From: Candidatus Peregrinibacteria bacterium CG1_02_54_53
GTDB lineage: Bacteria; Patescibacteriota; Gracilibacteria; Peribacterales; Peribacteraceae
NCBI GenBank assembly: GCA_001872575.1
Contig: MNWP01000033.1
Span: 1 to 62,242, forward strand
DNA length: 62,242 nucleotides
Direction of reading: 5' to 3'
This document shows, piece by piece, positions 2,364 to 23,814 of the stretch (position 1 is its first letter; each line of letters opens with the position of its first letter). A program made the translations under genes and the position numbers. The notes beneath the pieces were generated by a model. The model made no database searches. It was given only the letters and a program-made list of their open reading frames with translations, and had not been told where the DNA came from.

Positions 2364-2420
2364 GGTTCGGTTTCTCTCACCACAGGTGCCGAGGGCGGAC
2401 TTTCGCTGAATCACGGGTCC

Positions 2421-2448
2421 AGTGTACGGTTCGAGGTGTGCGTGTCAA
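2421..2448 (-). promoter_or_regulatory. Sigma-70-type promoter for the leader RNA
   Basis: On the minus strand TTGACA (2443-2448) and TACACT (2421-2426) are separated by 16 bp. The predicted start is about 2414, just upstream of the folded leader. Confidence 0.7.
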
Positions 2449-2642
2449 CGAAATCCGCAAGAAGGAGGGCGTGTCACTGCTGTGTCTCATGTCGGACAAA
2501 CTGACTGAGAGATCGTCAAGCGGATGCGCATTTTCACGTATTCTGCTATTCCATTGAGATGGTGTTCATGACCGATTCATTACATTTGTGCCCGGAAGTC
2601 CGTCAATGAGAGATTTTCCGTTCATCCGTATACTGGTCACCG

Positions 2643-5039
2643 ATGAAGAAAAATTCTCACAACAATATTCCCACGATCATTGTGGTTCTGGGTGCGACGG
2701 GGGACCTCATGGCAAAGAAAATCGTTCCTTCGCTTCTGCACCTTTCCGCAGAGGACAAAATCCCCAACAAGTTCAAAGTCGTGGGTTTTGCGCGCCGAGA
2801 ACTCAGTAATGAAGCTTTTCGGGAGCGCATCGCCGAAATCGTTGCGGTGCATAGGGAACATCACCGAAGTGATCACCATTCGCAGGCGTTCCTCGATCTT
2901 TTTGCGTATCATTCCGGTGATTTCAGCGATGTCGGTGCTTTTCGCGGACTCAAAGCCAAGCTGAAGGCGATCGATACCGAATGGGGCGTGTGTACGAACA
3001 AGGTGTACTACCTGGCGGTGCCGCCCGAAAAATTCGATCCGATCTTTCGCGGTCTCGGAGCGACCGGGCTCAATAAACCGTGCGGCGGCGCCTTCGGGTG
3101 GACGCGCATGCTGGTGGAAAAACCGTTCGGTCACGATCTTGTATCGGCCGAGAAATTGGAAAAATTGCTGGCGCGTTATTTTAAGGAAGAACAGATCTAT
3201 CGCATCGATCACTATCTGGCCAAGGAACTCATTCAGGGTATTTCCTATTTTCGGTTTTCGAACAACCTTCTCGAATCGTCGTGGAGCAACAGGGATATCG
3301 AGAAAATCGAAATCCGTTTGCTTGAGAGCATCGGCGTGGAGGAGCGTGGCAGTTTCTACGAGAGCGTGGGAGCGCTGCGGGATGTGGGGGAGAACCACCT
3401 TCTCGAAATGCTGGCGGCGATCACCATGGATGCACCGGTGAGCATGCATATCGAGGAATTGCACGCGAGACGTGCCGAACTGATGAACACTCTCAAGCCG
3501 TGGACGCTCAAGGAGATACAAGGGAACACCTTCCGCGCGCAGTATGAAGGCTACCGGTCCATTCGCGGTGTGAGCAGCGATTCCACTGCAGAAACGTACT
3601 TCAAGCTCAGGACGGAACTGCTGCATCCCGCCTGGCAGGGGGTGCCGATCTACTTTGAAGCGGGAAAGCGCTGCCCCGAAGCCCGCAAAGAGATTGTGGT
3701 CACTTTCAAGCATCCATCCACGTGTCTCATGTGCACGCGGGAACATCACATCCAAAACAGGGTGGTATTTGCCCTGGAGCCCGAAGAGAAAATTTCCATC
3801 CACTTCTGGACCAAGAAATCGGGGTACGAACACACGCTCGTCGAACGCACGTTCGATTTCTTCGTCCATCAGAGGACCTCGCGTATGAAATACGTGGAGG
3901 AGTACAGCAAACTGCTCTTCGCCTGCATTCTTGGCGACCAAACCGTGTTTCTGAGTGGCGACGAAGTACGTGCGCAGTGGAAATTCGCCGATCCGGTCGT
4001 AGATGCCTGGAAGAAGAACGTTGTGCCGTTACACACCTACAAGCCCGACAGCAGCGAGATGATTGAGGCTGCGGCGCACATCGGCGTCCCTCCCAAGGCG
4101 ACTGTGTCGAAAGAGATGGCCATCGTCGGATTGGGGAAGATGGGGGCGAACATGAGTCGGCACATGATGGAGAAGGGCTGGCGCGTGGTGGGGTACAACC
4201 GGTCGCCGGAAATCACCAAAGAGCTTGCCAAGGAAGGTCTTGTGCCGGCGATGAGTCTGGAAGAAACGGTACAGAAACTTCCCAGTCCGAGGCTCATCTG
4301 GCTCATGATCCCGGCGGGGAAAGCCGTGGATGACATTCTCTTCGGTACAACGGGCCTGACGCGTCTGTTGAAGCGCGGAGACATCATTGTGGACGGCGGG
4401 AATTCCTACTACAAAGACACCGTTTTCCGTGCGAAGAAACTCCGTCGTCTGGGAATCCGGTTTCTGGATTGCGGAACGTCCGGCGGGCCGAACGGTGCCC
4501 GTACGGGCGCGTGCCTCATGATCGGCGGCGACAAGAAAGACTTTCTGGAAATCGAGATGTTGTTCAAGGATTTTGCCGTGCCGAACGGCTATCAATTCTT
4601 TTCCGGTGCCGGTGCCGGCCACTTCGTCAAGATGGTGCACAACGGCATTGAATATGGAATGATGCAGGCTCTCGGGGAGGGCTTCGCACTGATGAAGAAG
4701 GCCCCTTTCAGGCTGGATCTGACGCGCGTCGCCGACGTGTACAACCACGGCAGTGTGATTGAATCGAGGCTTGTGGGCTGGCTTCAGGAGGCGCTGCAGC
4801 TCTACGGGCAGGACCTCAAACCGGTGTCGGGCTCGGTACAGCAGTTGGGCGAGGGAGCGTGGACGGTGAAGACGGCAAAGGAGATGAAGGTGGCGGTGAA
4901 GGTGATCGAAGACGCTCTGCGTTTTCGTTATCACTCCGAAAAGCATCCCAGCTACACCGGTCGTATCGTTGCCGCATTACGCAATCGTTTCGGCGGGCAT
5001 GCGGTGGAGGCGAAGCGAAAGAAGAAGCGTGCTGCCTGA
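2643..5039 (+). CDS. Bifunctional glucose-6-phosphate dehydrogenase / 6-phosphogluconate dehydrogenase
   Basis: A 798-residue fusion covering both oxidative steps of the pentose phosphate pathway, producing NADPH and ribulose-5-phosphate. Residues about 10-480 are G6PDH: nucleotide motif VLGATGDL near residue 15-22 and active-site RIDHYLAKE near 187 (the common form is RIDHYLGKE). Residues about 490-798 are a short-type decarboxylating 6PGDH: VGLGKMGANMS, then GTSGGPNGARTGACLMIGGD, then HFVKMVHNGIEYGMMQ with the catalytic Lys and Asn. The two halves run in one frame with no internal stop. No 6-phosphogluconolactonase gene is seen nearby. The start is supported by TATACT at 2629-2634, which leaves only 8 nt before ATG (leaderless). 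Domain identities are sure; the fused state is what is unusual. Confidence 0.95.
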   Translation: MKKNSHNNIPTIIVVLGATGDLMAKKIVPSLLHLSAEDKIPNKFKVVGFARRELSNEAFRERIAEIVAVHREHHRSDHHSQAFLDLFAYHSGDFSDVGAFRGLKAKLKAIDTEWGVCTNKVYYLAVPPEKFDPIFRGLGATGLNKPCGGAFGWTRMLVEKPFGHDLVSAEKLEKLLARYFKEEQIYRIDHYLAKELIQGISYFRFSNNLLESSWSNRDIEKIEIRLLESIGVEERGSFYESVGALRDVGENHLLEMLAAITMDAPVSMHIEELHARRAELMNTLKPWTLKEIQGNTFRAQYEGYRSIRGVSSDSTAETYFKLRTELLHPAWQGVPIYFEAGKRCPEARKEIVVTFKHPSTCLMCTREHHIQNRVVFALEPEEKISIHFWTKKSGYEHTLVERTFDFFVHQRTSRMKYVEEYSKLLFACILGDQTVFLSGDEVRAQWKFADPVVDAWKKNVVPLHTYKPDSSEMIEAAAHIGVPPKATVSKEMAIVGLGKMGANMSRHMMEKGWRVVGYNRSPEITKELAKEGLVPAMSLEETVQKLPSPRLIWLMIPAGKAVDDILFGTTGLTRLLKRGDIIVDGGNSYYKDTVFRAKKLRRLGIRFLDCGTSGGPNGARTGACLMIGGDKKDFLEIEMLFKDFAVPNGYQFFSGAGAGHFVKMVHNGIEYGMMQALGEGFALMKKAPFRLDLTRVADVYNHGSVIESRLVGWLQEALQLYGQDLKPVSGSVQQLGEGAWTVKTAKEMKVAVKVIEDALRFRYHSEKHPSYTGRIVAALRNRFGGHAVEAKRKKKRAA

Positions 5040-5062
5040 ATTCAACAAAAGTGGTCGGAGCA

Positions 5063-5108
5063 CCGAAGGTGCGGAAACCATGAGCGAGCGCCGAAGGCGC
5101 GAGTCGAA
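5063..5108. repeat. Tandem short hairpins (NNGAANN-loop palindromes)
   Basis: GCACCGAAGGTGC and GCGCCGAAGGCGC occur 20 bp apart just after the fused dehydrogenase gene. Each is a self-complementary hairpin of the class of short GC-rich palindromes scattered through the window. The remainder of 5109-5283 shows no gene. Confidence 0.55.
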
Positions 5109-5283
5109 TGGGGAGTGGACGCGGCAAGGTTACCTATTTCTCATCAAGACTCGCTTGGCAGTTCCTTGGGAATAATCAGTATAGAACATACCCTCTATGG
5201 TCAGAATGCCTTAAAGGGCGGGGGATAGGAGCAAAGATCAAGATGAATACGAGGGACAGCGATAAAGCGGGATAGCATTGATA

Positions 5284-5300
5284 TTGACTGTTTCAGTCAA
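5284..5300. promoter_or_regulatory. Perfect palindrome before the foreign methyltransferase-like gene
   Basis: TTGACTG TTT CAGTCAA is a perfect 7-bp inverted repeat ending 6 nt before the ATG at 5307. Its TTGACT half could also be a -35 box. It may be an operator or a short 5' hairpin; function is inferred from position only. Confidence 0.45.
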
Positions 5301-5306
5301 AAGGAT

Positions 5307-7109
5307 ATGGATATAACATCCATGGCTGAGCGCAAACTTTGCCGGGAAGATACGGATTTCATGCGCGAGTACATCCAAGAGGGTGTCGAGCGCGGTGAAA
5401 CACAGGAGCAAATTCAAAAGCGTCGCAGACAGCTAGCAGAACTTTTCACTTGCACGCTTCCACAGGTCGTTGGGGCCGTTGCTTGGAAACATTGTCCAGA
5501 TCAGGAGAAGCTCGTACTCATCCCTTTGGAGTTATCATCTCAAGATACCAGTGTGGGTGGGCATACCTCTACTCCGTCGGAACAACCCGTAGAGAATCCG
5601 CGAACAGAACGAGCGGCACAAGCGGTCTCGTCCATTGAGATTCCCATTGTGGTGCCTGACGCATCAAGGGAGGATACTGTGCAAGTTTCTTCGACGGATT
5701 CAGAAGAGAACACGCCTACTGACAAGGTGCGGTTTCATCCCAAGGGAGGAGCGTGGGCTGACTATGAACATAGTGAAATCAAAGAAAGATGGAGGGTAAC
5801 TGAAGCGAAGTTTGTTGATGAAAATGTCGATCCTGATCCTGAAAAGCGCGCGAAGATGCGTATACTGTGCACACCAGGTATCAAATGCTATTTGGAAATG
5901 CGCCATATTTTGGCAGAAGGCTTTAAACCGGAAAATGTGACTGCAGTGGAGAGAGACGACAAGGCATGGTCTGATTTTGAAACAAATGCGAAAGCACTTG
6001 GCATTCGTCCGGTCTTTGGAGAACTGAGTGAAGTGTTGCAACGCCAAAGAGCGCCTTTCGACGTAGCCCTAATCGATTTTGTGGGTCAGCAATCCATCCC
6101 CAGTCTCGAAGTGTTAAATAGATTGCCTCTAGCAAAGAGAGCGGTTGTAGCTATTACTACAATGGCTAAACGAGAAAATCCTCAGCTGCAGTATTCGATG
6201 GCAACACTGCACAAAAGGTATGAAGGTCACTCGCAAGAAGTCTTCGCGAGAGCCGTGGAGGAGAAAATCGAAGCTATAATTGCAGAGGGAAATTACCAAG
6301 TAGGTAATATCGTTGGAGACGCAATCAGACAACAAAATCAATGGGAACAGGAGCAAGAAGGAGAAGTGTCACATTCCATACGAGATACAACCATGTGGCA
6401 TCTGCTTAGGCAATTAGGCTCTCTCTCCATGGATAATTTGTTAATGGGGAAATGGATTGAAAAGACAAACATGCCTCTGAAAGCAATCAAAGAAATGGGA
6501 GATCAAGGTCCTAGAAAAGGCTTGAGCGAAGAGCAATGGCGAGCCTTACTCATCGAAGAAGCTATGCAAACTCTATCTTCGATGACAATGGAATTTGAGA
6601 CACTGACATCATCTCATCGCTCAAGGAAGCGAAAAATGTTCACGACGTTACGACGCCTAGGTTCATCTGCACTTGTGACTGAGAAAATGATCGCAAAATT
6701 AGAAAAGTACTACTACAAAAGTAAAATTGGACAGGTACCAAGTCCCTTCTTTACCAATCTCGCAGTCGTTGATACGCCGATTGAAGAGTATCGAAAGATG
6801 ATGCCCTCAATCAATTTCGTGTTTACCTGTTGTCGAGCAATCATTGCTGATGCTGCCGCTAGATTTACCCGTGGGGGTGCAAGGCACGATTTTGGAGTAA
6901 GGCTCGAAGCGAATGGATTGCATGATGTGTTTAATGGCACCGCCAGGATTGCCTTTTTCGATAATGGTAAACGCATTACCAGTATTAGCCTCAGACACAT
7001 AACGGATGATCTTAACGCGTTCGATGAGTTACAATCGCGCTATCCTCTTACGGATTATGAGAATCAGAAGAAAATACCTCGAATAGCTCTCGAAGATCTA
7101 CAATCATAG
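5307..7109 (+). CDS. Foreign-looking protein with a methyltransferase-like central fold
   Basis: A 600-residue protein not assigned to a named family. Residues about 10-60 are helical and charged (REYIQEGVERGETQEQIQKRR), resembling a DNA-binding helix-turn-helix region. A low-complexity acidic linker follows to about 150. Residues about 185-270 read like a Rossmann methyltransferase core: LCTPGIKCYLEMRHIL, then TAVERDD with the acidic residue expected to bind SAM ribose, then FDVALIDFVGQ. The C-terminal half is helical and unassigned. Base composition is visibly AT-richer than either neighbour, and the gene ends exactly against a decayed C39-like peptidase (stop TAG shares a base with its GTG). 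Horizontal acquisition is likely. SAM dependence is inference. Confidence 0.6.
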   Translation: MDITSMAERKLCREDTDFMREYIQEGVERGETQEQIQKRRRQLAELFTCTLPQVVGAVAWKHCPDQEKLVLIPLELSSQDTSVGGHTSTPSEQPVENPRTERAAQAVSSIEIPIVVPDASREDTVQVSSTDSEENTPTDKVRFHPKGGAWADYEHSEIKERWRVTEAKFVDENVDPDPEKRAKMRILCTPGIKCYLEMRHILAEGFKPENVTAVERDDKAWSDFETNAKALGIRPVFGELSEVLQRQRAPFDVALIDFVGQQSIPSLEVLNRLPLAKRAVVAITTMAKRENPQLQYSMATLHKRYEGHSQEVFARAVEEKIEAIIAEGNYQVGNIVGDAIRQQNQWEQEQEGEVSHSIRDTTMWHLLRQLGSLSMDNLLMGKWIEKTNMPLKAIKEMGDQGPRKGLSEEQWRALLIEEAMQTLSSMTMEFETLTSSHRSRKRKMFTTLRRLGSSALVTEKMIAKLEKYYYKSKIGQVPSPFFTNLAVVDTPIEEYRKMMPSINFVFTCCRAIIADAAARFTRGGARHDFGVRLEANGLHDVFNGTARIAFFDNGKRITSISLRHITDDLNAFDELQSRYPLTDYENQKKIPRIALEDLQS

Positions 7110-7581
7110 TGGGGTATTTCTCGTGGTTGCAGTCCATTCACTCGTGTCGCACTTTGATCGATTCGGAAGCGGAGGTGCAGCATATGGTGGCATGGGAAAG
7201 GGAGCATGGCTACGCCGACGATGTGAGCGCTGTGCAATTGGGGGTGATCGCACAGGGCTTCTACGGATATCATTTCCGTGTACTTTCTGATGTGACGGCC
7301 AAGAGTCTCAGAAGCGAACTTGCCGCTGGGAATCCCATCATCATTCCGGTGTTTGGTCGCGCGCTTAAAAATCCCTTCTTTAGCGGCGAAAGTCATTTTT
7401 ATCACATGCTGGTTGTCATCGGATACGCAGGAGACGGCTTCATTACAAGCGATCCCGGCACGAAACGGGGGGGCAATACTGGTACCAGACGGATGTGCTC
7501 ATGAACGCTCTGCATGACTGGATCGGTGTCAAAGAGCTGATCGCCACCGGTCCTAAAAATGCTCTCGTCATCGAACTGTGA
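7109..7581 (+). pseudogene. Degraded C39-like peptidase fragment
   Basis: Residues such as AGNPIIIPVFGR, FYHMLVVIGY and FITSDPGTKRGG match the C-terminal half of the C39-like (YvpB type) peptidase family, including the catalytic-His region. The part that would carry the catalytic Cys is missing. At 7468-7473 the frame breaks in a run of seven G; one more G would restore DPGTKRGG followed by QYWYQTDVLMNALHDWIG and a stop at 7579-7581. So the gene is N-terminally truncated and frameshifted, though a homopolymer sequencing error could explain the second lesion. The truncation abuts the foreign gene at 5307-7109, suggesting an insertion or replacement removed the front half. Confidence 0.7.
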
Positions 7582-7639
7582 TCGTGCCATCAGAACGCAG
7601 CGTAGCCTCTTTTGTATTGGTCAACGAAGAGCCTGCCGT

Positions 7640-8011
7640 TTACACGAGGTATTTCTCCGCAATGTTCCAGATCTGATCATCATCCATGTCACTTTTGATG
7701 AGGTATTCATTCACATCGAAATCATTGCATTTGATGATGTTCTTCTTATCACTCAGATTGGTGCAGACGACGACAGGAAATTTCAACTTCTTCTTTTTCC
7801 TGTGCTGCAGCACGGCAAAACCGTCGACATTCGGCATCAGCAGATCCAAGAGCAGAAGATCGGGAGGATCTTTGTCGATACTGTCGATCGCCTCCTGCCC
7901 GTCACGTGCAGTACTCACGCGAACGCCGTTCTTGGTGAGCAGACTTCGTATCATGCTCAGGAGGAATGCTTCATCCTCGGCAACGAGGACGTGTTTCTGT
8001 GGCTTGTCCAT
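7640..8011 (-). CDS. Stand-alone response-regulator receiver
   Basis: A 123-residue CheY-like receiver with no output domain. VLVAEDEAFLLSMI carries the acidic pair, LLLLDLLMPNVDGF the phospho-acceptor Asp, and PVVVCTN the conserved Thr. The usual Lys is probably in YLIKSDMDDD. It lies 59 nt downstream of a second receiver and close to a PAS histidine kinase on the same strand. Without an output domain it may act by protein contact or as a phosphate sink. The start is preceded by a pyrimidine-rich leader (TTCTTTTCTCCTCCCTACT), not a Shine-Dalgarno. Confidence 0.93.
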   Translation of the reverse strand: MDKPQKHVLVAEDEAFLLSMIRSLLTKNGVRVSTARDGQEAIDSIDKDPPDLLLLDLLMPNVDGFAVLQHRKKKKLKFPVVVCTNLSDKKNIIKCNDFDVNEYLIKSDMDDDQIWNIAEKYLV

Positions 8012-8070
8012 AGTAGGGAGGAGAAAAGAAATAAACTGAAAAGCAAGTCTGTTGTCCGGCGATCGGTTTT

Positions 8071-8433
8071 CTATCGCAGGTACCCTTCGATTGCGGGCCA
8101 GAGATCATCATCGTCCAGATCGTTCTTCACGAAGTAATTCTGTGCCTTCATTTCCTTACACTTATCCATCGTCTCCTTGTCGCTGAGATTGGAGAGCACG
8201 ATGACGGGGCACTCCAAGCTCTTTTCCCTGATGAATTTCATCACGCCGTGACCATCCAGCACCGGCATGAGGATATCGAGGAGCAGCAAATCCGGTACTT
8301 CCTCCCCCAGAGCCTCAACCGTTTCTTTGCCGTTATACGTGATCGTGACACGAATGTTGTATTTGCTCAGAACGTTTGCCATCAAATCGGCGAGAGCGGT
8401 GTCGTCTTCGGCGATGAGAACGTGCTTTTTCAT
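8071..8433 (-). CDS. Stand-alone response-regulator receiver
   Basis: A 120-residue CheY-like protein: VLIAEDDTALADLM, LLLLDILMPVLDGHG with the phospho-Asp, CPVIVLSNLSD and NYFVKNDLDDDDLW with the conserved Lys. It resembles the receiver at 7640-8011 closely, suggesting duplication. Only 6 nt separate it from the stop of the histidine kinase gene, so the two are almost surely cotranscribed and partners. No DNA-binding domain is attached. The leader before ATG is pyrimidine-rich. Confidence 0.94.
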   Translation of the reverse strand: MKKHVLIAEDDTALADLMANVLSKYNIRVTITYNGKETVEALGEEVPDLLLLDILMPVLDGHGVMKFIREKSLECPVIVLSNLSDKETMDKCKEMKAQNYFVKNDLDDDDLWPAIEGYLR

Positions 8434-8439
8434 AATAAA

Positions 8440-9771
8440 TCAGGAAGGAAATAGAAGAGTGAACGTGGTGCCTTTGTTCTCCTGCGAGACAAAAGAGATC
8501 GTACCGCCGATCAGTCGTACGATGTTATAGACCATATACAGGCCGATTCCGGTTCCGGCTTCCACGGGGCTGTCGACATTCGATGCACGAAAGAATTTCT
8601 CAGGGATCCTCTTTTGTTCCTCCTGCGGAATACCGTAACCCGTATCCGCCACATCGATACGGATCGACTCTTTTTCTTTGGTGACACTCATGCGCACCTT
8701 GCCGCCTCTGGGCGTATATTTGAGGGCATTGCTGAGGAGGTTATCCAGAATTTCGATGAGCAGCTGCTTATCTGTTCGTACCATGAGATCCTGTGGACAC
8801 TGCAGAGCGAGTTCCAGCCCGCTTCTTTGTCGGTGGGCATCATGAAGGCGGGTGATTTTCTCCAGTTCTTTCTGCAGGATCACCTGTTCAAGTTCCGGCT
8901 CCATGCCGTCTTCTTCAAGATGGGAGATCATCAGCATTCGCCGGATGGTCGAGGCCATATTCATGGATGTTTCGTGTGCGGTTTTCACCAGTTTCGTCTG
9001 CTCCTCGGTAAGTTTTTCTCTTTTAAGACTCGAGAGGACCCATCGAATCGCCGTGAGAGGCGTTCTCAACTGATGGGATGCGATGGACATGAATTCCGAT
9101 CTGGCTTTTTCGATTTCCTTTTCTTTGGTGATATCCCGAAATACCGTAACGGTGCCGATCAGCTCTTTGCCGATGTAAATCGGCGCAACAGTTACGGCAA
9201 CCGGAAAAGATGTTCCGTTTTTCCGCTTATAGTACGTGGTCATGGAGCGCTCTTTGGGGGTTTTTGTGACTGCACGTTCCGATTCCGGAATGGTCTTGCC
9301 GTTCGCATCGATTATGGGTATCACCTCGGACAGTAACTTTCCTTTTCTCTTTTCTCCCTTCCAGCCCAATAATCTTTCAAATGCCTTGTTTACAAGCAGA
9401 ATCCGTCCGTTTTTATCCGTAGCCACCAGACCTTCGCCGATACTGGCCAGGATCGCCTCGTCTTTCGCCCTGACTTTTTCTAAGTCTTTGGTGCGCTCAA
9501 GAACTTTCTTCTCAAGCGTTTTTCTCGACATCCTGAGTTCGTCCGCCGTTATTACCAGCTTGCGTCTGACATTCTCTTTTTCCCTGGCGGTCACCACCAG
9601 CTTGCGCCTGACCACCTCTTTTTCCCTGGCGGTTGCGGCGAGTTGTCTGGCTTTGAGACGAAGCTTCTTGGCGGTCACCACCAGTTTGCGCCGAACATCC
9701 TCTTTTTCCTTCGCCAGAATTTTGAGTTTGAGGGCTATGCCATCGGATGCGGAATGAATAGTTTTTCTCAT
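8440..9771 (-). CDS. Cytoplasmic PAS sensor histidine kinase
   Basis: 443 residues with no membrane segment. Residues 1-100 are a charged coiled coil with three near-identical units of the type AREKEVVRRKLVVT. A PAS domain follows (about 105-220; ASIGEGLVATDKNGRILLVN). The dimerisation/phospho-acceptor domain holds SHQLRTPLTAIRW, and the ATPase domain has NLLSNALKYTP (N box), DTGYGIP (G1) and GTGIGLYMVY (G2). It autophosphorylates on the H-box His and presumably phosphorylates the receivers encoded just downstream. A cytoplasmic signal or a partner reached through the coiled coil is implied. A promoter (TTGTCC, 18 bp, TACATT) lies 50-80 nt upstream. Confidence 0.95.
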   Translation of the reverse strand: MRKTIHSASDGIALKLKILAKEKEDVRRKLVVTAKKLRLKARQLAATAREKEVVRRKLVVTAREKENVRRKLVITADELRMSRKTLEKKVLERTKDLEKVRAKDEAILASIGEGLVATDKNGRILLVNKAFERLLGWKGEKRKGKLLSEVIPIIDANGKTIPESERAVTKTPKERSMTTYYKRKNGTSFPVAVTVAPIYIGKELIGTVTVFRDITKEKEIEKARSEFMSIASHQLRTPLTAIRWVLSSLKREKLTEEQTKLVKTAHETSMNMASTIRRMLMISHLEEDGMEPELEQVILQKELEKITRLHDAHRQRSGLELALQCPQDLMVRTDKQLLIEILDNLLSNALKYTPRGGKVRMSVTKEKESIRIDVADTGYGIPQEEQKRIPEKFFRASNVDSPVEAGTGIGLYMVYNIVRLIGGTISFVSQENKGTTFTLLFPS

Positions 9772-9820
9772 AATAGTTCAGGACCGATGGAGAGGGTTTT
9801 TTGCATGAATGTGAAAGTTT

Positions 9821-9850
9821 AATGTACGCGTTTTTTTTGGCATGGGACAA
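9821..9850 (-). promoter_or_regulatory. Promoter of the histidine kinase/receiver operon
   Basis: On the minus strand TTGTCC (9845-9850) and TACATT (9821-9826) are spaced 18 bp, giving a start about 43 nt before the kinase ATG. The spacer contains a run of eight A. It is a moderate match to the sigma-70 consensus. Confidence 0.45.
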
Positions 9851-9863
9851 ACTCTTCCTCTCT

Positions 9864-10241
9864 TCAAGAAGGTCTTGCCCCTTCGATGCTTCGCAACTTC
9901 GCTTCGAGGACAGTGGCTTGTTCTCCCATCTTTTTCTTGGCCGCCTCCCGACGCCGGGTTTCTTCGATGAAGCCCTTCTGAATTTCTTCTGATAAATGGA
10001 CCACTTCGCCTTCCCGTCGCAGAGTTTCTTGAGACATACGATCTTTGCGGGAATTCTCTTCCATCTGATGTGCTTCCTCTTTTTTTAACGTCGCTAGCTT
10101 TGCGGTCTCTTTTTGCTTTTCCGCATATCGTCGCTCCGTTTCGGTCTTCCTGTCCTTCAACAGCTTGCTGTTGAGGCGCTCCTCTTCTGAGATAATTTTG
10201 GTAATGCGGTCCTGTAAGGGCTGGATGGTATCATCGCTCAT
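9864..10241 (-). CDS. Highly charged coiled-coil protein
   Basis: 125 residues, almost entirely Lys/Glu/Arg-rich helix (ISEEERLNSKLLKDRKTETE, RRYAEKQKETAKLATLKKEE), with no signal peptide or membrane segment. It is likely an elongated cytoplasmic coiled coil. It lies between the kinase and a GlsB-like gene on the same strand, 22 nt from the latter. Its ATG is preceded by TTTCCTTTCCCTTTCACACC, a clear example of the pyrimidine-rich leader used in this locus. No family was recognised. Confidence 0.7.
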   Translation of the reverse strand: MSDDTIQPLQDRITKIISEEERLNSKLLKDRKTETERRYAEKQKETAKLATLKKEEAHQMEENSRKDRMSQETLRREGEVVHLSEEIQKGFIEETRRREAAKKKMGEQATVLEAKLRSIEGARPS

Positions 10242-10263
10242 GGTGTGAAAGGGAAAGGAAATA

Positions 10264-10506
10264 TCACGCGCGTTTCAGTGTGCGCAGGACGGCAATGAGT
10301 ACGACGGCGCCGATCACTGCCATGACGATGGCACCCAGTGTTCCATAGGCGCTGAGGCCGAAAAGATTGAACAGGAAGCCGCCGATGACGGAGCCGATGA
10401 TTCCGAGGATGATGTCACCCACGATGCCGTATCCGCCACCGCCCATGATCTGCCCGGCAAGCCAACCTGCGATAAGGCCGATGAGAAGAAACCAGAGAAT
10501 GTTCAT
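10264..10506 (-). CDS. GlsB/YeaQ/YmgE-family small membrane protein
   Basis: 80 residues with three glycine-rich membrane helices; NILWFLLIGLIAGWLAGQIM, GGGGYGIVGDIILGIIGSVI and GTLGAIVMAVIGAVVLIAVL are the family pattern (transglycosylase-associated/stress-response proteins). The internal ATG at 10506 is preferred because it puts the first helix at the N-terminus as in the family. A close paralogue lies at 14484-14726, suggesting local duplication around the S-layer genes. Exact role is not established for the family; envelope stress is the usual association. Confidence 0.85.
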   Translation of the reverse strand: MNILWFLLIGLIAGWLAGQIMGGGGYGIVGDIILGIIGSVIGGFLFNLFGLSAYGTLGAIVMAVIGAVVLIAVLRTLKRA

Positions 10507-10525
10507 CAAAGAGGAAGGAAAAGAA

Positions 10526-11185
10526 TTATCGAAGATTGCCCATGGTCGTGCTTGCCCGATCTGTCGCATTCACCTTGAGGCGATAGACTATTTCGGCCAT
10601 CTCGCCGCGGGTTATCGTCTTGTCAAAACGCGTGATACTCACGGGGATGGCATGCAGATCGGAGAGTCGTTGCACGTAGGGGCGGTACCAGAATTCTCCG
10701 GTCTCATTTTTTTCGATGTTCAGGCTGAAGACATTAGAGATGATCTTGGCCGCCTCCACGAAGTTGATGGAATCCGCGGGGCGGTACGTGCCGTCCGGGT
10801 AGCCGTTGATGATATCCTTTGTTTTGGCAAAACAAACATCATTGGCATACCACGTATCTCTCGAAACATCAGAGAAGAAGACTGTTGATGCGGAGCTGGA
10901 TACATTCTCCCTCAGACACGCACTCATGTTGTTGGTATCCAGAATGAAAGGATTGATCACAAAGTGCACGAATTCCGCACGGTTGATGCGTGTATCGGGC
11001 TTGAACGTTCCGTCCAGATAGCCCCTGACCACGTTCTGCGTGCGGAGGTATTCAATACCTTCGAAGTACGTGCTGGTTTCGGGAACATCCGTGAACGGAT
11101 TTTGCGAGAACGCCGTATCCTGCTGTGCAAGGGCAGTGCTGCCAAAGAGCAGAGAGCCGATGAGAAGAGAGAAGAGGAAATACAT
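10526..11185 (-). CDS. Exported protein with S-layer homology domains
   Basis: 219 residues beginning with a signal peptide (FLFSLLIGSLLFGSTALAQQ). The rest consists of three SLH-type repeats: NPFTDVPETSTYFEGIEYLR with VVRGYLDGTFKPDTRINRAE, FFSDVSRDTWYANDVCFAK with IINGYPDGTYRPADSINFVE, and a third ending ITRGEMAEIVYRLK. SLH domains usually anchor proteins to cell-wall polymers, so this would be a small cell-surface protein made only of anchor. Flanked by GlsB-like and secreted-protein genes on the same strand. Confidence 0.9.
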   Translation of the reverse strand: MYFLFSLLIGSLLFGSTALAQQDTAFSQNPFTDVPETSTYFEGIEYLRTQNVVRGYLDGTFKPDTRINRAEFVHFVINPFILDTNNMSACLRENVSSSASTVFFSDVSRDTWYANDVCFAKTKDIINGYPDGTYRPADSINFVEAAKIISNVFSLNIEKNETGEFWYRPYVQRLSDLHAIPVSITRFDKTITRGEMAEIVYRLKVNATDRASTTMGNLR

Positions 11186-11273
11186 TGGATGGTGGGGGAA
11201 GAGAAAAATATTTTTTGGAGCGGCTTGCTTGCTGCCCCCGTCGGATGACGGAAGCAGCGGCAGAAAAGAGTTC

Positions 11274-11831
11274 TTAGTGTACGTTCAGGGCGTTTCGCAG
11301 TTCCGCTGCAATAATGATTGAACGACGGGTAGGTGCGCTCCCTACGTAGCTGCGGGAATACCCGCTGCTCGAAAAGACCGTGGTTTTGAAGGGAACCGTT
11401 GCGCCACCATATGATGGGCTGGGTACGTTCGTCGGGAAATCCGGGGAGTAGATGGTCTGATCAGTGGTGGACCGGGCCGGATGCGTCGAAGAACGGAACC
11501 GCGCGAGAGCGACCGGATTGAAAAACAATTGCCGTCGCATCATATTCAAGTTCGATAGGAGGAGACGATGGGCTTGAGCGTAGGTTGGTGAACCGATCTC
11601 CAGTTCATCCAATAGATGGATCTGCAAATTCATTGCATTGACTTCCTGCTTGAGAGTCGGAAAGAGCGATTCGAGCACGGGAGGTGCATCCATAAACGTC
11701 GGCGGCGGTTGATCCAGAAATCCGTTGTTTGGCTGAACCGATTGGTCGGATTGAGCCATTGCCGACGTAGCCATGGTGCCGAAGACCAGGAAGGTGACGG
11801 ACAGGCCGATGGTGAAGATGTAATTTTTCAT
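11274..11831 (-). CDS. Secreted hypothetical protein
   Basis: 185 residues. The ATG at 11831 gives a good signal peptide (MKNYIFTIGLSVTFLVFGTM, then ATSAMAQS); longer forms would be read from the pyrimidine-rich leader. The mature part has a helical segment (LKQEVNAMNLQIHLLDELEI) and a Ser/Thr/Pro-rich C-terminal half without cysteines. No family was recognised. By location it belongs to the envelope locus between two SLH proteins. Confidence 0.75.
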   Translation of the reverse strand: MKNYIFTIGLSVTFLVFGTMATSAMAQSDQSVQPNNGFLDQPPPTFMDAPPVLESLFPTLKQEVNAMNLQIHLLDELEIGSPTYAQAHRLLLSNLNMMRRQLFFNPVALARFRSSTHPARSTTDQTIYSPDFPTNVPSPSYGGATVPFKTTVFSSSGYSRSYVGSAPTRRSIIIAAELRNALNVH

Positions 11832-11893
11832 GATGAGTGGAGGGAGTGATGGGGAAGGAAAAGGAAAGGAAGAGAAAAGAAGGAAAGAATGCC

Positions 11894-12055
11894 TCATCCG
11901 CGGTCCATAGTCCGTCGCACCGCGGACTGGACGGCCCGGGAGCTATGAAGACTCTGAAAGGCATCCCGATGAATCGAGGGGAACCACTCTTGGAGTTCGT
12001 CGTTGAATCGTCGTGAAGGCCGAATGGGAGGGTAGTAAGAACGCGAGGTATTCAT
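11894..12055 (-). CDS. Small hypothetical protein driven by a transposon-end promoter
   Basis: A 53-residue Arg/Ser-rich polypeptide (MNTSRSYYPPIRPSRRFNDE) with no recognised domain. The ATG at 12055 lies 25 nt from the -10 box carried by the adjacent deletion derivative of the IS element, and the leader is pyrimidine-rich (CACTTTCCACATCTTCCC). Coding status rests mainly on this context, which matches the other two genes that face such transposon ends. Confidence 0.45.
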   Translation of the reverse strand: MNTSRSYYPPIRPSRRFNDELQEWFPSIHRDAFQSLHSSRAVQSAVRRTMDRG

Positions 12056-12079
12056 GGGAAGATGTGGAAAGTGAGTTTT

Positions 12080-12425
12080 CACAATAGATGCGTGCGACTT
12101 TTGCGCAAGCGACTGCGCGCACATGAATTCGCCGGGTTCTAAGCACCTCGACGCTCATCTGGACCGCGATACATCTTTCCTTCTTTCAGTGGTCAGTCGA
12201 TAGTGGTCTGTACTGTTCAGTGATGTCCGTATCCTGCAATCTGAACAAGGGAAGTGACGGAAAGAACCATCTGAGGAGGACGCACGATCTTTCTGGGGTG
12301 CGGCAGAGGGTACTTGCATCAATTATCATCGTGGAAGCGGAACGGAGAGAGTTCTGTAGCTTCAATAGTCCCTTCCATGGAGAAAGGGAGCGTCAGACAT
12401 ATCTCATCGACAAAGCATCATGATA
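12080..12425 (-). mobile_element. MITE-like deletion derivative of the IS1595-like element
   Basis: About 345 bp matching both ends of the complete element at 16635-17712. One end (about 12225-12425) matches the region upstream of the transposase plus roughly its first 35 codons, including CATCGACA, ATTATCATCG, GGTGCGGCAG and GTGACGG blocks; it would still begin MIIDAS where the intact gene has MIINAD. The other end (12080-12170) matches the last ~95 bp of the element, including GTCCAGA, GGCGA, GTGCGCGCA and the outward promoter. The transposase body is absent. Terminal inverted repeats and target duplications were not securely located. Confidence 0.7.
12081..12108 (-). promoter_or_regulatory. 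Outward promoter at the end of the MITE-like element
   Basis: On the minus strand TTGCGC (12103-12108) and TATTGT (12081-12086) are spaced 16 bp. The same arrangement is conserved in the two related elements at 16.6 and 18.6 kb. The predicted start is close to the element boundary, leaving an ~18-nt leader for the gene at 12055. Confidence 0.5.
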
Positions 12426-12566
12426 TTTCTTAGTCATGTATCTTCCTTCTTCATCTGTCTCCAGTCGACCATGTCTCTTTCTTTGTGCACGATGGATCCG
12501 GCTAAGTCAAAGAAGACGGGTCGCTCTGGGCAACCCGACTCTCCGACTAAAATGATGGTGATGTCT

Positions 12567-14450
12567 TCAGCGCAGTATCTGACCGCGGATTTCACCGTCC
12601 GGATGTAACGATGACTGGATGTTCACATAGAACCCACCATCAAAGAGCGTACTACGCTCCTCATTGGTGAGATTCGACCACATGCCGATTGCACGCTTTC
12701 CATTGAACGTGATCGTCAGGACCTCCGATCCGCTCTGCCCGGCGGATCCCTGATGAATGTGGGCGGAAACGATGGAGCCGCTCATGTTGCGGACGGTGAT
12801 GTCGTAGTGAAGGCCGTCGTTCATCAAGAGGAAGGAGCCTGTCCCGCTCGCCGCTGTCGACACGGATGGTACCTCCTGACCTCCGGTCATGTTCGAATGG
12901 AAATTCACCGTACCTGCGGCGTAGACGAAGGAAGTGTCGTCCGAGAAGATAACGCCGCTCGCAGCCTGCATGCCTCGTACATCCAGGGCGTAGGATCGTT
13001 GCGTCTGCATGGCTTCATTGAGAGAGAGTTCGACCATGCGATTGGTGAGAATCTGCGACGAAACGATACTGAGGGCGTGGGTACTGTCCGTGAGGCCGTA
13101 CCGTGAAGAATCTTCTGCCCGCAACGAATCGAGATCCACATCAAAGCTGACGCTGATGCGGTTTGCTGTGACAGGCGTCACCGTTGTGATATGTCCCGTC
13201 TGTGCCGCTGCAAGGACCACAGTGGCACTCTCAGTGAAGTCTGTGCCGGTTCGCGTGAGAAGATGCGTTGCCGTCACGCGATACGTGATATTCGCGGTGA
13301 TATCCGTGGCAAGCAGAAACTCGATCGTGCGATTGTTGAAGATCGTCACGGTTTGAACGTTAATCGCTTCAACACCGGAGGCTCTCGTCATTGTATAGCG
13401 CGAGGCATCGGCGGCACGGCCCGTGTCGAGATCAATATCGAATGCCAGGCGGATACGGCGCGTCGTGAGTGCCGTGATATCGGTGATGTGAGCTGCGGGT
13501 GCCGTGAAGCTCAGGTTTGCGTTATCCGAGAAGATTGTGCCGTCCTGCGCAAGAAGATCGCTGGCGGTGACGAGGTACATGACTTCTGCCGCAAGATTAT
13601 TGGAGAGGTTGAGCTCGACCGTCTTGCTGTCGATCAACGATGCAGAGGCAACGGTGATGCTGTGAGAAATTGAGTAACGAGCTGCATCCTCCGCGCGAGC
13701 GGAGCTGAGGTCGCGGTCAAACACGAGGCGGACCCTTGTCGGAGAAATGGCGGATACGTCGGTGATGTGTGCCGACTGCCGACTGCAGTCCGTTCCATAC
13801 TGGAGGTTTAAGGAGGCGCGGTAGAACATGGTGACCATCTCCGCACGGTTCATGAATGCTGCAGGACGCACACTTTCCGTTCCATCATCGCCCTGAAGCA
13901 CGCAGTGGTCGGCCGATGACTGAATGTTGGTGAAGTACCATTGGTACTGCGAATTATCCGAGAACACCGGCGCTTTCCCTGTACTGTTGAGCGTAAATGA
14001 TCGCACGAGCAAGGATGCGGCTTCCGCACGGTTCACATTGCTGGCGGCACTCGCATAGCATGGACGTGACTGCTGATAGCAGTTCCCGTTGCCACGAACC
14101 CAACCTGCGTCGGCGGCCGCTTCGAAGTACGGAAAGTACCATGCGCTTCGCGATACGTCATTGAAGCTCGATAGGTTCGGATAGAGAAGCGTGGTGCCAT
14201 TTAGATTGACCATGAGTTTCACCAGTTCCGCGCGGGTGGCCAAAGCCGCAGGACGCAACGTGGTCGTGCGATCGAGAGCACCGGACTCTAAGAGCGCGGC
14301 GGCAGCGTCTTCATAGTACGCGCCGTCAGGCACGTCGACGAAAGGTGTCTTCTGCGCAAAGACGGCTACCGGAATACCGAGGCAGAAGAGGAGTATGCCT
14401 GTGATGGTGTAGATCCGCTGTAGGCGGAAGGGAGAGGGAAGGGAGAACAT
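12567..14450 (-). CDS. Exported SLH protein with Ig-like repeats and a C-terminal CHRD domain
   Basis: 627 residues with a signal peptide (TGILLFCLGIPVAVFAQK). Residues about 35-225 hold three SLH-type units (e.g. TPFVDVPDGAYYEDAAAALL; VFSDNSQYQWYFTNIQSSAD). Residues about 228-505 contain three Ig-like repeats, each opening with HIT-V and containing RVRLVFDRDL-like strands. Residues about 510-627 match the CHRD domain: GGQEVPSVSTAASGTGSFLL, SAHIHQGSAG, GGFYVNIQSSLHPDGEIRGQ. Probably a wall-anchored surface protein displaying the CHRD domain. The ATG follows a long pyrimidine-rich leader; the gene is followed by the MITE-like element. Confidence 0.9.
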   Translation of the reverse strand: MFSLPSPFRLQRIYTITGILLFCLGIPVAVFAQKTPFVDVPDGAYYEDAAAALLESGALDRTTTLRPAALATRAELVKLMVNLNGTTLLYPNLSSFNDVSRSAWYFPYFEAAADAGWVRGNGNCYQQSRPCYASAASNVNRAEAASLLVRSFTLNSTGKAPVFSDNSQYQWYFTNIQSSADHCVLQGDDGTESVRPAAFMNRAEMVTMFYRASLNLQYGTDCSRQSAHITDVSAISPTRVRLVFDRDLSSARAEDAARYSISHSITVASASLIDSKTVELNLSNNLAAEVMYLVTASDLLAQDGTIFSDNANLSFTAPAAHITDITALTTRRIRLAFDIDLDTGRAADASRYTMTRASGVEAINVQTVTIFNNRTIEFLLATDITANITYRVTATHLLTRTGTDFTESATVVLAAAQTGHITTVTPVTANRISVSFDVDLDSLRAEDSSRYGLTDSTHALSIVSSQILTNRMVELSLNEAMQTQRSYALDVRGMQAASGVIFSDDTSFVYAAGTVNFHSNMTGGQEVPSVSTAASGTGSFLLMNDGLHYDITVRNMSGSIVSAHIHQGSAGQSGSEVLTITFNGKRAIGMWSNLTNEERSTLFDGGFYVNIQSSLHPDGEIRGQILR

Positions 14451-14483
14451 GGGAGAGGGGGAAAAATAAAGGAAGAAGGGGAA

Positions 14484-14726
14484 TCATGCGTGTTTCAGTG
14501 TGCGCAGCACGACGATTAGAACAATGGCACCGATGACCGCCATGATGATGGCGCCAAGTGTTCCGTAGGCGGTGATACCGACCATGCGAAACAGGAGACC
14601 GCCTATGAGTGAGCCGACGATCCCCACGACGATATCACCGATGATCCCGTACCCGCCGCTCCCCATGATCTGACTGGCAAGCCAGCCCGCAACGAGGCCG
14701 ATGAAGAGAAACCAGATGATGTCCAT
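14484..14726 (-). CDS. GlsB/YeaQ/YmgE-family small membrane protein (second copy)
   Basis: 80 residues, three helices, near-identical in plan to the protein at 10264-10506 (DIIWFLFIGLVAGWLASQIM; GSGGYGIIGDIVVGIVGSLI; ending RTLKHA). It lies 33 nt upstream of the SLH-CHRD gene, and the first copy similarly neighbours an SLH gene, so the pair may be a duplicated module. The ATG is preceded by a C/T tract with about ten consecutive C. A large inverted repeat sits just upstream at 14745-14798. Confidence 0.85.
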   Translation of the reverse strand: MDIIWFLFIGLVAGWLASQIMGSGGYGIIGDIVVGIVGSLIGGLLFRMVGITAYGTLGAIIMAVIGAIVLIVVLRTLKHA

Positions 14727-14744
14727 GAGGGGGGGGGGAAGAGA

Positions 14745-14798
14745 GAAAAGCGCAGAGTGATACTGTTTCCGATAGCATCACTCTCGCGCTTCTCAGAG
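14745..14798. terminator. Long inverted repeat, probable terminator
   Basis: GAGAA/TTCTC, GCGC/GCGC and AGAGTGAT/ATCACTCT segments pair into a stem of about 17 bp with a ~15-nt loop; on the minus strand it is followed by TTTTCTCTC. It would end transcription from the 74-codon gene upstream and lies directly before the leader of the GlsB-like gene. It could also be a processing site. Confidence 0.6.
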
Positions 14799-14877
14799 AG
14801 GGAAGCCGCCCCACAGAGGAGTCCTCGATGCGGGGCTTTGCATAGGAAAGGGGGGAATGAGAAAGAACAAAGGAGTC

Positions 14878-15102
14878 CTACTGCTCTGTAGGATCGGAGC
14901 TCGGTAGAGGGCCATTGATGTTCAGGTTCACCGAGGGGGGCACTGTGGCATCCGCGAGAGGCACTGTATTGAATGGAAAGACCCGTAGAACGTACATTGC
15001 GATGCCGATAACAAAGAAAATGGCGACGATTGCAACAAGAGCGACCAGTGATGATGCAGTGCCGTCGTCATGCTGGATATCGTGTTCGATGATGGTTGGC
15101 AT
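14878..15102 (-). CDS. Small single-span membrane protein
   Basis: 74 residues. One hydrophobic helix (SLVALVAIVAIFFVIGIAMY) follows a short charged N-terminus, and a Pro/Ser/Thr-rich tail (PPSVNLNINGPLPSSDPTEQ) follows. The topology cannot be fixed from sequence. It has the locus-typical pyrimidine-rich leader. No family recognised. Confidence 0.6.
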   Translation of the reverse strand: MPTIIEHDIQHDDGTASSLVALVAIVAIFFVIGIAMYVLRVFPFNTVPLADATVPPSVNLNINGPLPSSDPTEQ

Positions 15103-15151
15103 AGAGAAGTGGGGAAAATAAGAAGTAAGGAAGAAATAAAAAGAAAAAAGC

Positions 15152-16609
15152 TTAGTTCGCCGGAACGATGATCGTGTTGCTCTGAAGTGTTACTGCACCG
15201 ATGCGAGCGAGCAGCCGGCCATCCACTTTGGCGCCCGTCTGAAGAGAAATGGATTGATCGGCAAGAATCGTCCCTTTGAAGGTTGAATTAGTTCCAAGGT
15301 TTGCCGAGGTACCCACCTGCCAGAAAATATTGGATGCCTTCGCTCCGCCCATGAGCACGACCTGCCGCCCGACTGACACACTCAGTGTCGATGCCACCTG
15401 AAAGACAAACACGGCGTTGGCGTTGCCCTTTGCATCCAGCGCCAGATCACCGGAAGAGATTTCCAGTGATGACGTAGATTTGTACAGGCCCGGACTGAGA
15501 GTCGATCCTCCCAGATTCCCCGCGATACTCACCGGATTCGTGGAACGTCCTGCCAGGTCATTGTAGGCAATGGTGAGCGCCACTTTTGCCTGTGATGCCA
15601 GAGTATCCGTCACATGGATCGAACCTCCGTTCACAATCCCCGGTGCGAAGCCGGTGACCGCAGATCCCGGGCTAACGCCCAAATTTCCCGTTACGGTTGT
15701 TGGACCGGTATTGGTTACCGTTGAACCGGCCAATACACCGAATGTCGATGCAGCTCCCAACGATACAGAAGATTGGTTTACATTAAGTGGAGTGTTCGCT
15801 GAGAGAGAGGAGGAGGCGCCGCACGAGAAATTCGCATATTCACTGTTTCCGTCCAGAGTGGTGTAGGCATAGCCGCCACAAGAACTTTTCCAGGTCAGAG
15901 AAGTATTCTTCGATCCCTTCACATCGGCGATGCAGGCTCCGATACCGCTGCAACCGAATGATAGAGGGTTGTCTGAAGCATTGGCGGTATAACATCGCTG
16001 CTCCGTTGTCGTGCCATTGAAGACGCATTTGACCTGTTCTGAAACAGAGGGAGGGGTGGTGGAACTGACGCATCTGCCGTCAATGCATTTGTTGGTGGGG
16101 CACGGTGCCATAAAGCAAGCAATTTGTGGGCAATCAGTGTCTTCTGTGCACTCAGTGGACGGCGTGCATTGGCGAGCCAATGCAGTGCAGGCGATATTTC
16201 CCGTTGTTCTTCCGCAGTTGTTGGAATCAACTGGCGTCTGTGGTTGCCAGCCATTCGTGCAGGCGCCCCAAGCACATCTCCACTTTGAAGTGCAGGGTGT
16301 CGGAGCAACAACGCCGTATGACGAAGAGGAGTTCGCCCTGCTTGTACTGCGAGAACTCGCATGCCCATTATTCAACGCAACTGCCTGTTGCATGCATGTG
16401 CGAAATCGCAGACGGATTGTATGTCGAACTTCTGAAGCGAAATTCAAACTAAAGACACCATTGTAACTTCTCTGTTGCAAACACACTTTCACCTGCTCGC
16501 CTGTTGCTCCCATTCTCTGACCTTGGGCCGAGGCAAGTGTGAGGCCCATGAGGGAGAGCGCGGATGCCGTGATGAGCGCTGTTCCGATACTGAGGCGTAA
16601 TCGTGTCAT
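15152..16609 (-). CDS. Exported protein with C-terminal DUF3494 ice-binding-type domain
   Basis: 485 residues. The ATG at 16609 gives a signal peptide (RLSIGTALITASALSLMGLT, then LASAQG). The middle (about 100-270) is cysteine-rich with short repeats (CTSKWRCAWGACTNGW; DCPQIACFMAPCPTNKC; CVFNGTTTEQRC). Residues about 280-485 match the DUF3494 ice-binding/antifreeze family: AASTFGVLAGSTVTNTGPTT, TGNLGVSPGSAVTGF, ALTIAYNDLAGR, LSPGLYKSTSSLEIS, ASNIFWQVGTSANLG and FKGTILADQSISL. In that family the domain is a beta-solenoid that binds ice or acts as an adhesin; actual ice binding here is unproven. Transcription probably starts in the adjacent IS end, leaving an 18-nt pyrimidine-rich leader. Confidence 0.88.
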   Translation of the reverse strand: MTRLRLSIGTALITASALSLMGLTLASAQGQRMGATGEQVKVCLQQRSYNGVFSLNFASEVRHTIRLRFRTCMQQAVALNNGHASSRSTSRANSSSSYGVVAPTPCTSKWRCAWGACTNGWQPQTPVDSNNCGRTTGNIACTALARQCTPSTECTEDTDCPQIACFMAPCPTNKCIDGRCVSSTTPPSVSEQVKCVFNGTTTEQRCYTANASDNPLSFGCSGIGACIADVKGSKNTSLTWKSSCGGYAYTTLDGNSEYANFSCGASSSLSANTPLNVNQSSVSLGAASTFGVLAGSTVTNTGPTTVTGNLGVSPGSAVTGFAPGIVNGGSIHVTDTLASQAKVALTIAYNDLAGRSTNPVSIAGNLGGSTLSPGLYKSTSSLEISSGDLALDAKGNANAVFVFQVASTLSVSVGRQVVLMGGAKASNIFWQVGTSANLGTNSTFKGTILADQSISLQTGAKVDGRLLARIGAVTLQSNTIIVPAN

Positions 16610-16634
16610 AAAAAATCGGGGGGAAAGAAAGGCC

Positions 16635-16662
16635 ACAATGGTCGCGTGTAATTTTTGTGCAA
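16635..16662 (-). promoter_or_regulatory. Outward promoter at the IS end
   Basis: On the minus strand TTGCAC (16657-16662) and CATTGT (16635-16640) are spaced 16 bp, the third instance of this conserved arrangement. It points at the ice-binding-type protein gene, whose ATG is 26 nt beyond. The -10 box is the weakest of the three. Confidence 0.45.
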
Positions 16663-16734
16663 GCGTGTGCGCGCACACGAAGTCGCCGCTTTTGGAGCAG
16701 CTCAACACTCTTCTGGACTAATCGGTGCAGAACC

Positions 16735-17604
16735 CTACGGTTGGTTGGCTGCCGTTGAAGGCTTCTTCGTACTGAACAGCCAGCTGGTGAGGAAATCCGC
16801 GGGCATCAGCCCGATGATTTTTCGTGCCTGCAGTTCGGGTTCGAGGGATCTGTTGTTGTATTTCCACTCGAGCTCCTTGAGAAAGAAGCCCGTGTTTCGT
16901 TTCCAGATGCCGTGGTGGTTACGTATCCGTTCCCGAATCCATGTCCACACTTGCCCTGCAACGTCCTTCTCCTGTTCTCCCTGTGTGAAGCGGTGAAACT
17001 TGCCGCAACAAATGAATCCTGCGTAACCCTCTCGGCGGCCGATTGCCTCCTCTTTGGAACCGTACGTATGGAAGTGAAGCACCGCTTCATCATCATTGAG
17101 CGGGTCAATGGTAACCTCTCCGCTTTCCCGTAATTGCACCCCGAACACCGGTGGCTCTTCCCGCGTACTGGCACGCAACTTGCTTTTGCACCATCGACAA
17201 CGGGATGCGTCGTGCACCTCCTGAATGTCTCCCTTGTGTGCGGTGAGGAGCTGCAGTTTTTCCTGCGACAGGCTCTTTTCGGTGAGGAGTTTGCGAAAGT
17301 GATCGTAGAAGACGGTGACCAGCGGGTAGCGGTGATACGTGATCTGTACCGTTCTGTGTGCCGAGAAATCGAGACAGAAGCAGAGCAGGATCTCCGCGCA
17401 CTGCTGAAGTTTGTTGGTATCGGTCACTTTATTGATGCGGAACTTCTTGCCGCACACGGTACATTTCTTGCGCCCGTCTCCCAGCGAATTCAGCTTCGTT
17501 CGTATCTTGCAATAGGGGCAAAGGATGTGACGGGAGGTGTCACTCTGGGTGAGACGCACCTTCTCCTTCAGGTGCGGCAGGAGAGAATCCGCATTGATAA
17601 TCAT
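16735..17604 (-). CDS. IS1595/ISXO2-like transposase
   Basis: 289 residues. An N-terminal zinc ribbon (CPYCKIRTKLNSLGDGRKKC, then VCGKKF) and a second CxxC pair (CRWCKSKLR) precede an ISXO2-like core: VFGVQLRESGEVTIDPL, GYAGFICCGKFHRFTQGEQE, and the C-terminal signature NHHGIWKRNTGFFLKELEWK followed by YNNR. The positions where active relatives carry the second Asp (GS-x-TDE) and the Asn/Glu pair (H-x-N-x-IE-x-FW) read GSKEEAIGRRE and KDVAGQVW, so the catalytic triad seems altered although the frame is intact. Either the element is inactive or the protein has another role. Confidence 0.8.
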   Translation of the reverse strand: MIINADSLLPHLKEKVRLTQSDTSRHILCPYCKIRTKLNSLGDGRKKCTVCGKKFRINKVTDTNKLQQCAEILLCFCLDFSAHRTVQITYHRYPLVTVFYDHFRKLLTEKSLSQEKLQLLTAHKGDIQEVHDASRCRWCKSKLRASTREEPPVFGVQLRESGEVTIDPLNDDEAVLHFHTYGSKEEAIGRREGYAGFICCGKFHRFTQGEQEKDVAGQVWTWIRERIRNHHGIWKRNTGFFLKELEWKYNNRSLEPELQARKIIGLMPADFLTSWLFSTKKPSTAANQP

Positions 17605-17812
17605 CGTAGAGGCGGAAAGGGAACTCTTTGAACGATCAGTATAGTCCTTTTCCAGAAGAAAATGCGTGAAATCGATATTTCATCGACATAATTTCATTAT
17701 GTTGCTCGGAAACTTTTCATCGGTCTAGAGATGAATCTCCTTTGAATCTGTACATTTCTTTCTGATTTTCACTGCTCTCTATTATTGAAAGAAGTCAGTC
17801 TCACATCAGCTG

Positions 17813-18526: not shown

Positions 18527-18561
18527 AACTGCAAGAGGTCGTTATTCAAGAAATGAATTTT

Positions 18562-18872: not shown

Positions 18873-18937
18873 GCAGTTGATGATTGGCTTGAGATCATCT
18901 GCGGTCGGCAGTGTCACTCTTTGGATTTGAATCTTCG

Positions 18938-19063
18938 ATGAAGAAACACCTCACACCTTTGATGCAAAACTGGGGCGAGCTTTGGTATGACGTGCGAACT
19001 GAGATCACCGAGACGTTCAGACAGCTGCAAGGTGCGTTTGCCCTGCTTCGGACAGCTGCCTGA
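18938..19063 (+). CDS. Possible 41-codon small protein at the island edge
   Basis: ATG to TGA encodes MKKHLTPLMQNWGELWYDVR followed by TEITETFRQLQGAFALLRTA and a final A. The sequence is amphipathic-helical and protein-like. It lies between the MITE-like element and the Mrr gene. No strong promoter or ribosome site is visible, so this is a weak call. Confidence 0.3.
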   Translation: MKKHLTPLMQNWGELWYDVRTEITETFRQLQGAFALLRTAA

Positions 19064-23812: not shown

Positions 23813-23814
23813 CG

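Follow-up and report, generated by a model that had tools for sequence, protein, structure and literature searches.

A zwf-gnd fusion gene predicted to encode both glucose-6-phosphate dehydrogenase and 6-phosphogluconate dehydrogenase in a patescibacterial genome

RESULTS

A single open frame joins zwf and gnd

We analyzed a 62,242-nucleotide stretch of DNA, referred to below as the window, from Candidatus Peregrinibacteria bacterium CG1_02_54_53. It carries a maintained gene in which glucose-6-phosphate dehydrogenase (G6PDH, zwf) and 6-phosphogluconate dehydrogenase (6PGDH, gnd) are joined into one predicted bifunctional protein, and fusions of this kind are recurrent among uncultured bacteria. 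The frame opens with an ATG at position 2643 and ends with a stop codon at 5037-5039, encoding 798 aa without internal stops. The features of the gene are as follows.

2643..5039, + strand: gene for the zwf-gnd fusion protein (798 aa), with predicted G6PDH and 6PGDH activities (open frame and family profiles)
2673..4061, + strand: G6PDH (Zwf) half, residues 11-473 (TIGR00871, 425 bits; PDB G6PDH folds)
3201..3227, + strand: G6PDH substrate motif RIDHYLAKE, residues 187-195 (D189, H190, and K194 invariant)
4062..4112, + strand: linker, residues 474-490, about 17 residues (domain bounds; variable among 25 fused proteins)
4113..5015, + strand: short-form 6PGDH (Gnd) half, residues 491-791 (NF007161, TIGR00872; Z score of 28.3 to 7cb0)
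4617..4667, + strand: 6PGDH catalytic motif GHFVKMVHNGIEYGMMQ, with K663, H666, N667, and E670 (invariant in 25/25)

A preliminary description of this DNA had proposed that two enzymes normally found as separate proteins are fused here in a single chain, and both points held. The first half matched the NCBIfam zwf family TIGR00871 at 425 bits (cutoff, 400.6) over profile positions 3 to 469 of 486, while the second half matched NF007161 at 358.8 bits (cutoff, 271) over positions 2 to 301 of 302, both essentially full length, and TIGR00872 at 342.6 bits (cutoff, 297.2) on residues about 491 to 791. In addition, the Pfam domains G6PD_N, G6PD_C, NAD_binding_2, and 6PGD were each found in the 798-aa chain above their own cutoffs. 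The 6PGDH half is of the short form (about 300 aa), as opposed to the usual enzyme of 470 to 480 aa. With both domains in one chain and G6PDH first, the architecture is that of the G6PDH-6PGDH fusion reported from a diatom (see Discussion). It is not that of a G6PDH-6-phosphogluconolactonase (6PGL) fusion, since a Pfam search with E values up to 0.1 detected no PF01182 (6PGL) domain in the chain; moreover, the linker of about 17 residues is too short to hold a lactonase domain.

The residues expected for catalysis are conserved in both halves. The RIDHYxxKE motif and the catalytic His of G6PDH are present, with D189, H190, K194, and H252 invariant in 25/25 aligned fused proteins, and so are the Lys, Glu, SGG, and HN elements of 6PGDH (K663, E670, S613 to G615, H666, and N667), Y671, and the glycine motifs of both enzymes. 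We take D189, H190, K194, and H252 to have the roles that they have in known G6PDHs, and K663, H666, N667, and E670 presumably act as in sheep 6PGDH. Judged from the sequence, the chain would thus have both activities. As for the cofactor, NRS after the second beta strand of the window 6PGDH half suggests NADP, and NR[ST] occupies this site in 16/25 fused proteins. An Asp is found there in L006 and in the five fused f30-family proteins (L113, L114, L115, L118, and L119), a second fusion group, in which it suggests the use of NAD rather than NADP in the 6PGDH half.

The fusion recurs across Patescibacteria and beyond

Three of the five genomes of the genus carry the fusion; in the other two (G002 and G004), neither enzyme gave a match. 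Among 30 other members of the family, a separate zwf was found in 26 and a fused frame in none; most of them also have a separate gnd, its frame at least some 470 aa long. We further searched an even sample of 379 genomes from the phylum, in which at least 119 had a match and at least 13, the window's own genome included, were fused; both figures are lower bounds among the matches listed, and G136, with only an incomplete gnd piece, was counted as unfused. We take the phylum to be Patescibacteria, since L112, from a genome of the same phylum, shares its zwf with L012, a Parcubacteria record. In a second collection, fusion was found in 10 of the best 80 of 593 loci, again a lower bound. By their record titles, these fused loci include Magasanikbacteria, Wolfebacteria, Doudnabacteria, and Parcubacteria, as well as loci labeled Actinomycetota (Coriobacteriia, Slackia, and two "Actinomycetes"). 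In one Parcubacteria genome (G423), a fused zwf-gnd pair (L009) coexists with an unfused one (L031).

Trees and gene spacing point to a probable origin in coupled operons and a probable horizontal gain

In the zwf tree, the window gene falls in a clade of zwf-gnd genes from Patescibacteria and Actinomycetota, well away from the 16 zwf rows that represent its family and class; likewise, in the gnd tree its 6PGDH half is parted from the long-form gnd of that family and class. This distance from the family's own zwf and gnd fits a horizontal gain. A single origin of the fusion was rejected for the zwf half (all 25 as one clade; AU test, P = 7.6e-5, quick tree), and the five fused f30 proteins stand apart from the other fused zwf halves. 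The gnd tree, however, is poorly resolved (22/74 inner branches starred), so that separate origins cannot be told from later splittings.

To count gene arrangements, we used 122 loci, leaving aside L001, the duplicates L101, L103, and L112, and the partial L104. Fused genes make up 24 of these; at a further 25, gnd follows zwf, with the two open frames overlapping or no more than 18 bases apart (L052, with frames running off the contig end, is outside the spacing count). At L019 the gnd start overlaps the zwf stop in the sequence ATGA, while at L012, L013, L116, and L117 the two open frames share one reading frame and are parted by a stop; one small mutation could therefore yield a fusion. Tightly coupled zwf-gnd operons are the probable source of repeated fusions. 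L120 (G156) and L121 (G124) have zwf, with no gnd match in the genome, and are nested among fused relatives, a possible loss of the 6PGDH half.

A comparison of the same-genus genomes placed the gene within the following feature.

2400..25800, no strand: variable region, with hisS on one side and a conserved block on the other, containing the fusion

In the window, hisS and the fusion are 0.8 kb apart, but in G001 and G003 the distance is some 13 kb, with the fusion past a block corresponding to window positions 7155 to 18870. Both the fusion and this block are absent from G002, where hisS is separated from the equivalent of window position 26497 onwards by about 4 kb of other DNA; the G004 contig ends too early for the comparison. 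Since the place of the fusion and the order and content of genes differ among the genus genomes, the stretch from 2.4 to 25.8 kb is variable.

Other contents of this stretch include an Mrr-type restriction endonuclease (PF04471) and a serine recombinase (PF00239/PF07508) at window positions 19073-20104 and 23779-25056. Adjoining the fusion, positions 5307-7109 encode a 600-aa protein with no Pfam match at an E value of 0.001, and positions 15152-16708 encode a protein with an ice-binding-like domain (PF11999, 220 bits). Positions of about 10260-10510 and 14476-14742 align to one place in L139 and L141, and hence a repeat of some 250 bases is likely.

Absence of a known lactonase follows the pathway branch more than the fusion

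The preliminary description had also stated that the lactonase step is skipped, and indeed no recognizable 6-phosphogluconolactonase was found. Profile searches with PF01182 and PF10282 gave no match in the window's own genome (a 42-contig draft, 96.4% complete), PF08450 gave none above the cutoff in any of the five genus genomes, and PF01182 was found in 0/5 of them, including the one-contig G003. PF01182 is present in 26/26 members of other genera of the family that have zwf, mostly near zwf. Three partial, overlapping stretches of the PF10282 profile matched open frames of 530 and 729 aa in a fused genome, G122; we judged these to be beta-propeller repeats and rejected them as a lactonase.

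What opens the lactone may be spontaneous hydrolysis or an enzyme. A separate lactonase of another family could perform the middle step, with the fusion serving only as a co-expression device. Non-orthologous replacement is common. Moreover, excerpts of PMC3148214 state that without a lactonase the delta-lactone is converted to a gamma-lactone, which is toxic and is not hydrolyzed spontaneously; this disfavors spontaneous hydrolysis alone and argues for an enzyme. On the other hand, no obvious lactonase-like gene recurs in the flanks of the 25 fused loci (flanks of at most 1.5 kb for part of them). Altogether, we regard this explanation as possible, though rather less probable than its converse. 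Judged from their sequences, a few recurring neighbors of the fused genes resemble other enzymes, some of them for sugar phosphates.

Alternatively, the fusion itself might channel the lactone or hydrolyze it in place, making a lactonase unneeded. PF01182 was found in 0/3 fused genomes of the genus and, among the matches listed for the phylum sample, in 0/13 fused versus 64/106 unfused genomes (Fisher P = 2e-5, which ignores kinship; four sub-cutoff matches uncounted). Within the fused proteins' own zwf subclade, however, the figures were 1/24 fused versus 9/26 unfused, so kinship explains much of the contrast, and 17/26 unfused members lack PF01182 as well. Only two independent pairs lie on starred (well-supported) branches (sign test, P = 0.5 to 1; lactonase state available for 69/82 tree rows, with L007 left out as ambiguous because G421 matched at 31 bits over two pieces). 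Furthermore, G416 (2.6 Mb) is fused yet has a PF01182 match of 221.6 bits, the fused G421 has a weak one, and the fused protein itself contains no lactonase domain. Channeling, which the preliminary description had taken the fusion to suggest, is therefore not supported, and we consider it improbable; spontaneous hydrolysis, the other option that it offered, or a lactonase of another family accounts for the gap equally well. Judged by these profile matches, the lack of a known lactonase accompanies this pathway branch and is not strictly tied to the fusion. A broader reading is that one protein provides an oxidative pentose phosphate pathway free of any lactonase, handing the lactone from one active site to the other and opening it in place; this trait would have had more than one origin and would have replaced the three-gene set as it spread through unrelated bacteria. 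That reading is likewise improbable.

The fused frame is maintained as one gene

The same single frame occurs in the same-genus genomes G001 and G003, with 81 and 82% identity, and is intact in the one-contig G003. Comparison of the window with either relative gave a dN/dS of about 0.1 in each half, indicative of purifying selection, and a higher or saturated value in the linker. An AlphaFold2 model built with the alignment of 25 fused proteins had a mean pLDDT of 86.1 and a pTM of 0.67; the latter would leave the mutual placement of the halves unsure. In the model, residues 5 to 483 match solved G6PDHs (Z score of up to 44.4), and residues 489 to 798 match a 6PGDH (7cb0; Z score of 28.3).

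It is conceivable that the working enzymes are separate, either because the chain is cut after translation or because the 6PGDH half has an additional start of its own at an internal ATG. A Met is found at residue 492, where the 6PGDH fold starts, in the window, G001, G003, and L002, and excerpts of PMC2173943 indicate that some diatom fusion proteins are possibly cleaved. Nonetheless, 21/25 fused proteins have no Met at this position of the alignment, and the frame has stayed joined across about 20% divergence, which makes separate enzymes unlikely. Finally, although the genomes are mostly drafts, an assembly or binning artifact or a chance joint can be dismissed, because the identical frame architecture is found in G001, in the single-contig G003, and in 10 of the best 80 loci of the second collection, with purifying selection in both halves.

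DISCUSSION

A likely course of events

The reading that we favor, and consider likely as a whole, is that the fusion came from a coupled zwf-gnd operon, was gained horizontally by the genus, and works alongside a lactone that opens spontaneously or through an unrecognized enzyme. One protein would convert glucose 6-phosphate to ribulose 5-phosphate with the yield of two reducing equivalents, the intermediate lactone most likely being opened by spontaneous hydrolysis or by such an enzyme. The source of the fusion would most likely be a zwf-gnd operon that was tightly coupled or overlapping. The genus may then have acquired the fusion by transfer into the variable genome region, the family's zwf, long gnd, and pgl being absent. 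A transketolase-type frame, present in 5/5 genus genomes, could take the product onward. Joining the two enzymes would give a fixed stoichiometry and proximity.

Such a protein would offer a natural single-chain, probably NADPH-making pair for tests of substrate channeling, and it raises the question of whether 6-phosphogluconolactonase is needed in vivo. Since Patescibacteria hold fused, unfused, lactonase-bearing, and lactonase-free versions, a direct comparison is possible. The consequence for genome annotation is that a single gene can hold both pathway dehydrogenases in these tiny genomes.

Relation to known systems

No bacterial fusion of G6PDH and 6PGDH was found in the open-access literature searched, and such cases are apparently unreported, although this kind of fusion is itself already known. 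The sole printed case found there is protein 54663 of the diatom Phaeodactylum tricornutum, described in excerpts of PMC2173943 and PMC3148214. The preliminary description had held that many characterized fusions of the same architecture would count against it; we found no characterized bacterial case and only the diatom report, while uncharacterized fusions recur across Patescibacteria. According to excerpts of PMC3148214, a BLAST search of nr in 2011 returned no second G6PDH/6PGDH fusion, and the diatom annotation was doubted. Excerpts of PMC4736985, which deals with Peribacteria, name the pentose phosphate pathway once and mention no fusion. Excerpts of PMC13059738 describe a patescibacterium with G6PDH and lactonase.

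Among the near relatives of the fusion are patescibacterial zwf-gnd pairs that are not fused (e.g., L012, L013, L019, and L116); their gene order is the same, but a stop codon or frame change separates the two chains. The 6PGDH half is matched over its whole length by short-form 6PGDHs (TIGR00872/NF007161; PDB 8ihe, 4e21, and 10gw); the solved ones, however, are free-standing, and at the site where the window protein carries NRS, 8ihe, described as NAD-dependent, carries Asp. G6PDH-6PGL fusions (animal H6PD, apicomplexans, and Giardia/Trichomonas, as listed in excerpts of PMC3148214) also join G6PDH to a pathway partner, but that partner is the lactonase, whereas in the window fusion it is the enzyme after the missing lactonase step. 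With the P. tricornutum protein, as described in the excerpts cited above, the window fusion shares the same two enzymes, a short spacer, and G6PDH named first. The diatom, however, is eukaryotic and has a lactonase and separate copies as well, and its fused annotation has been questioned, whereas the window fusion is bacterial, carries a short-form 6PGDH, and is the only copy in a genome with no known lactonase.
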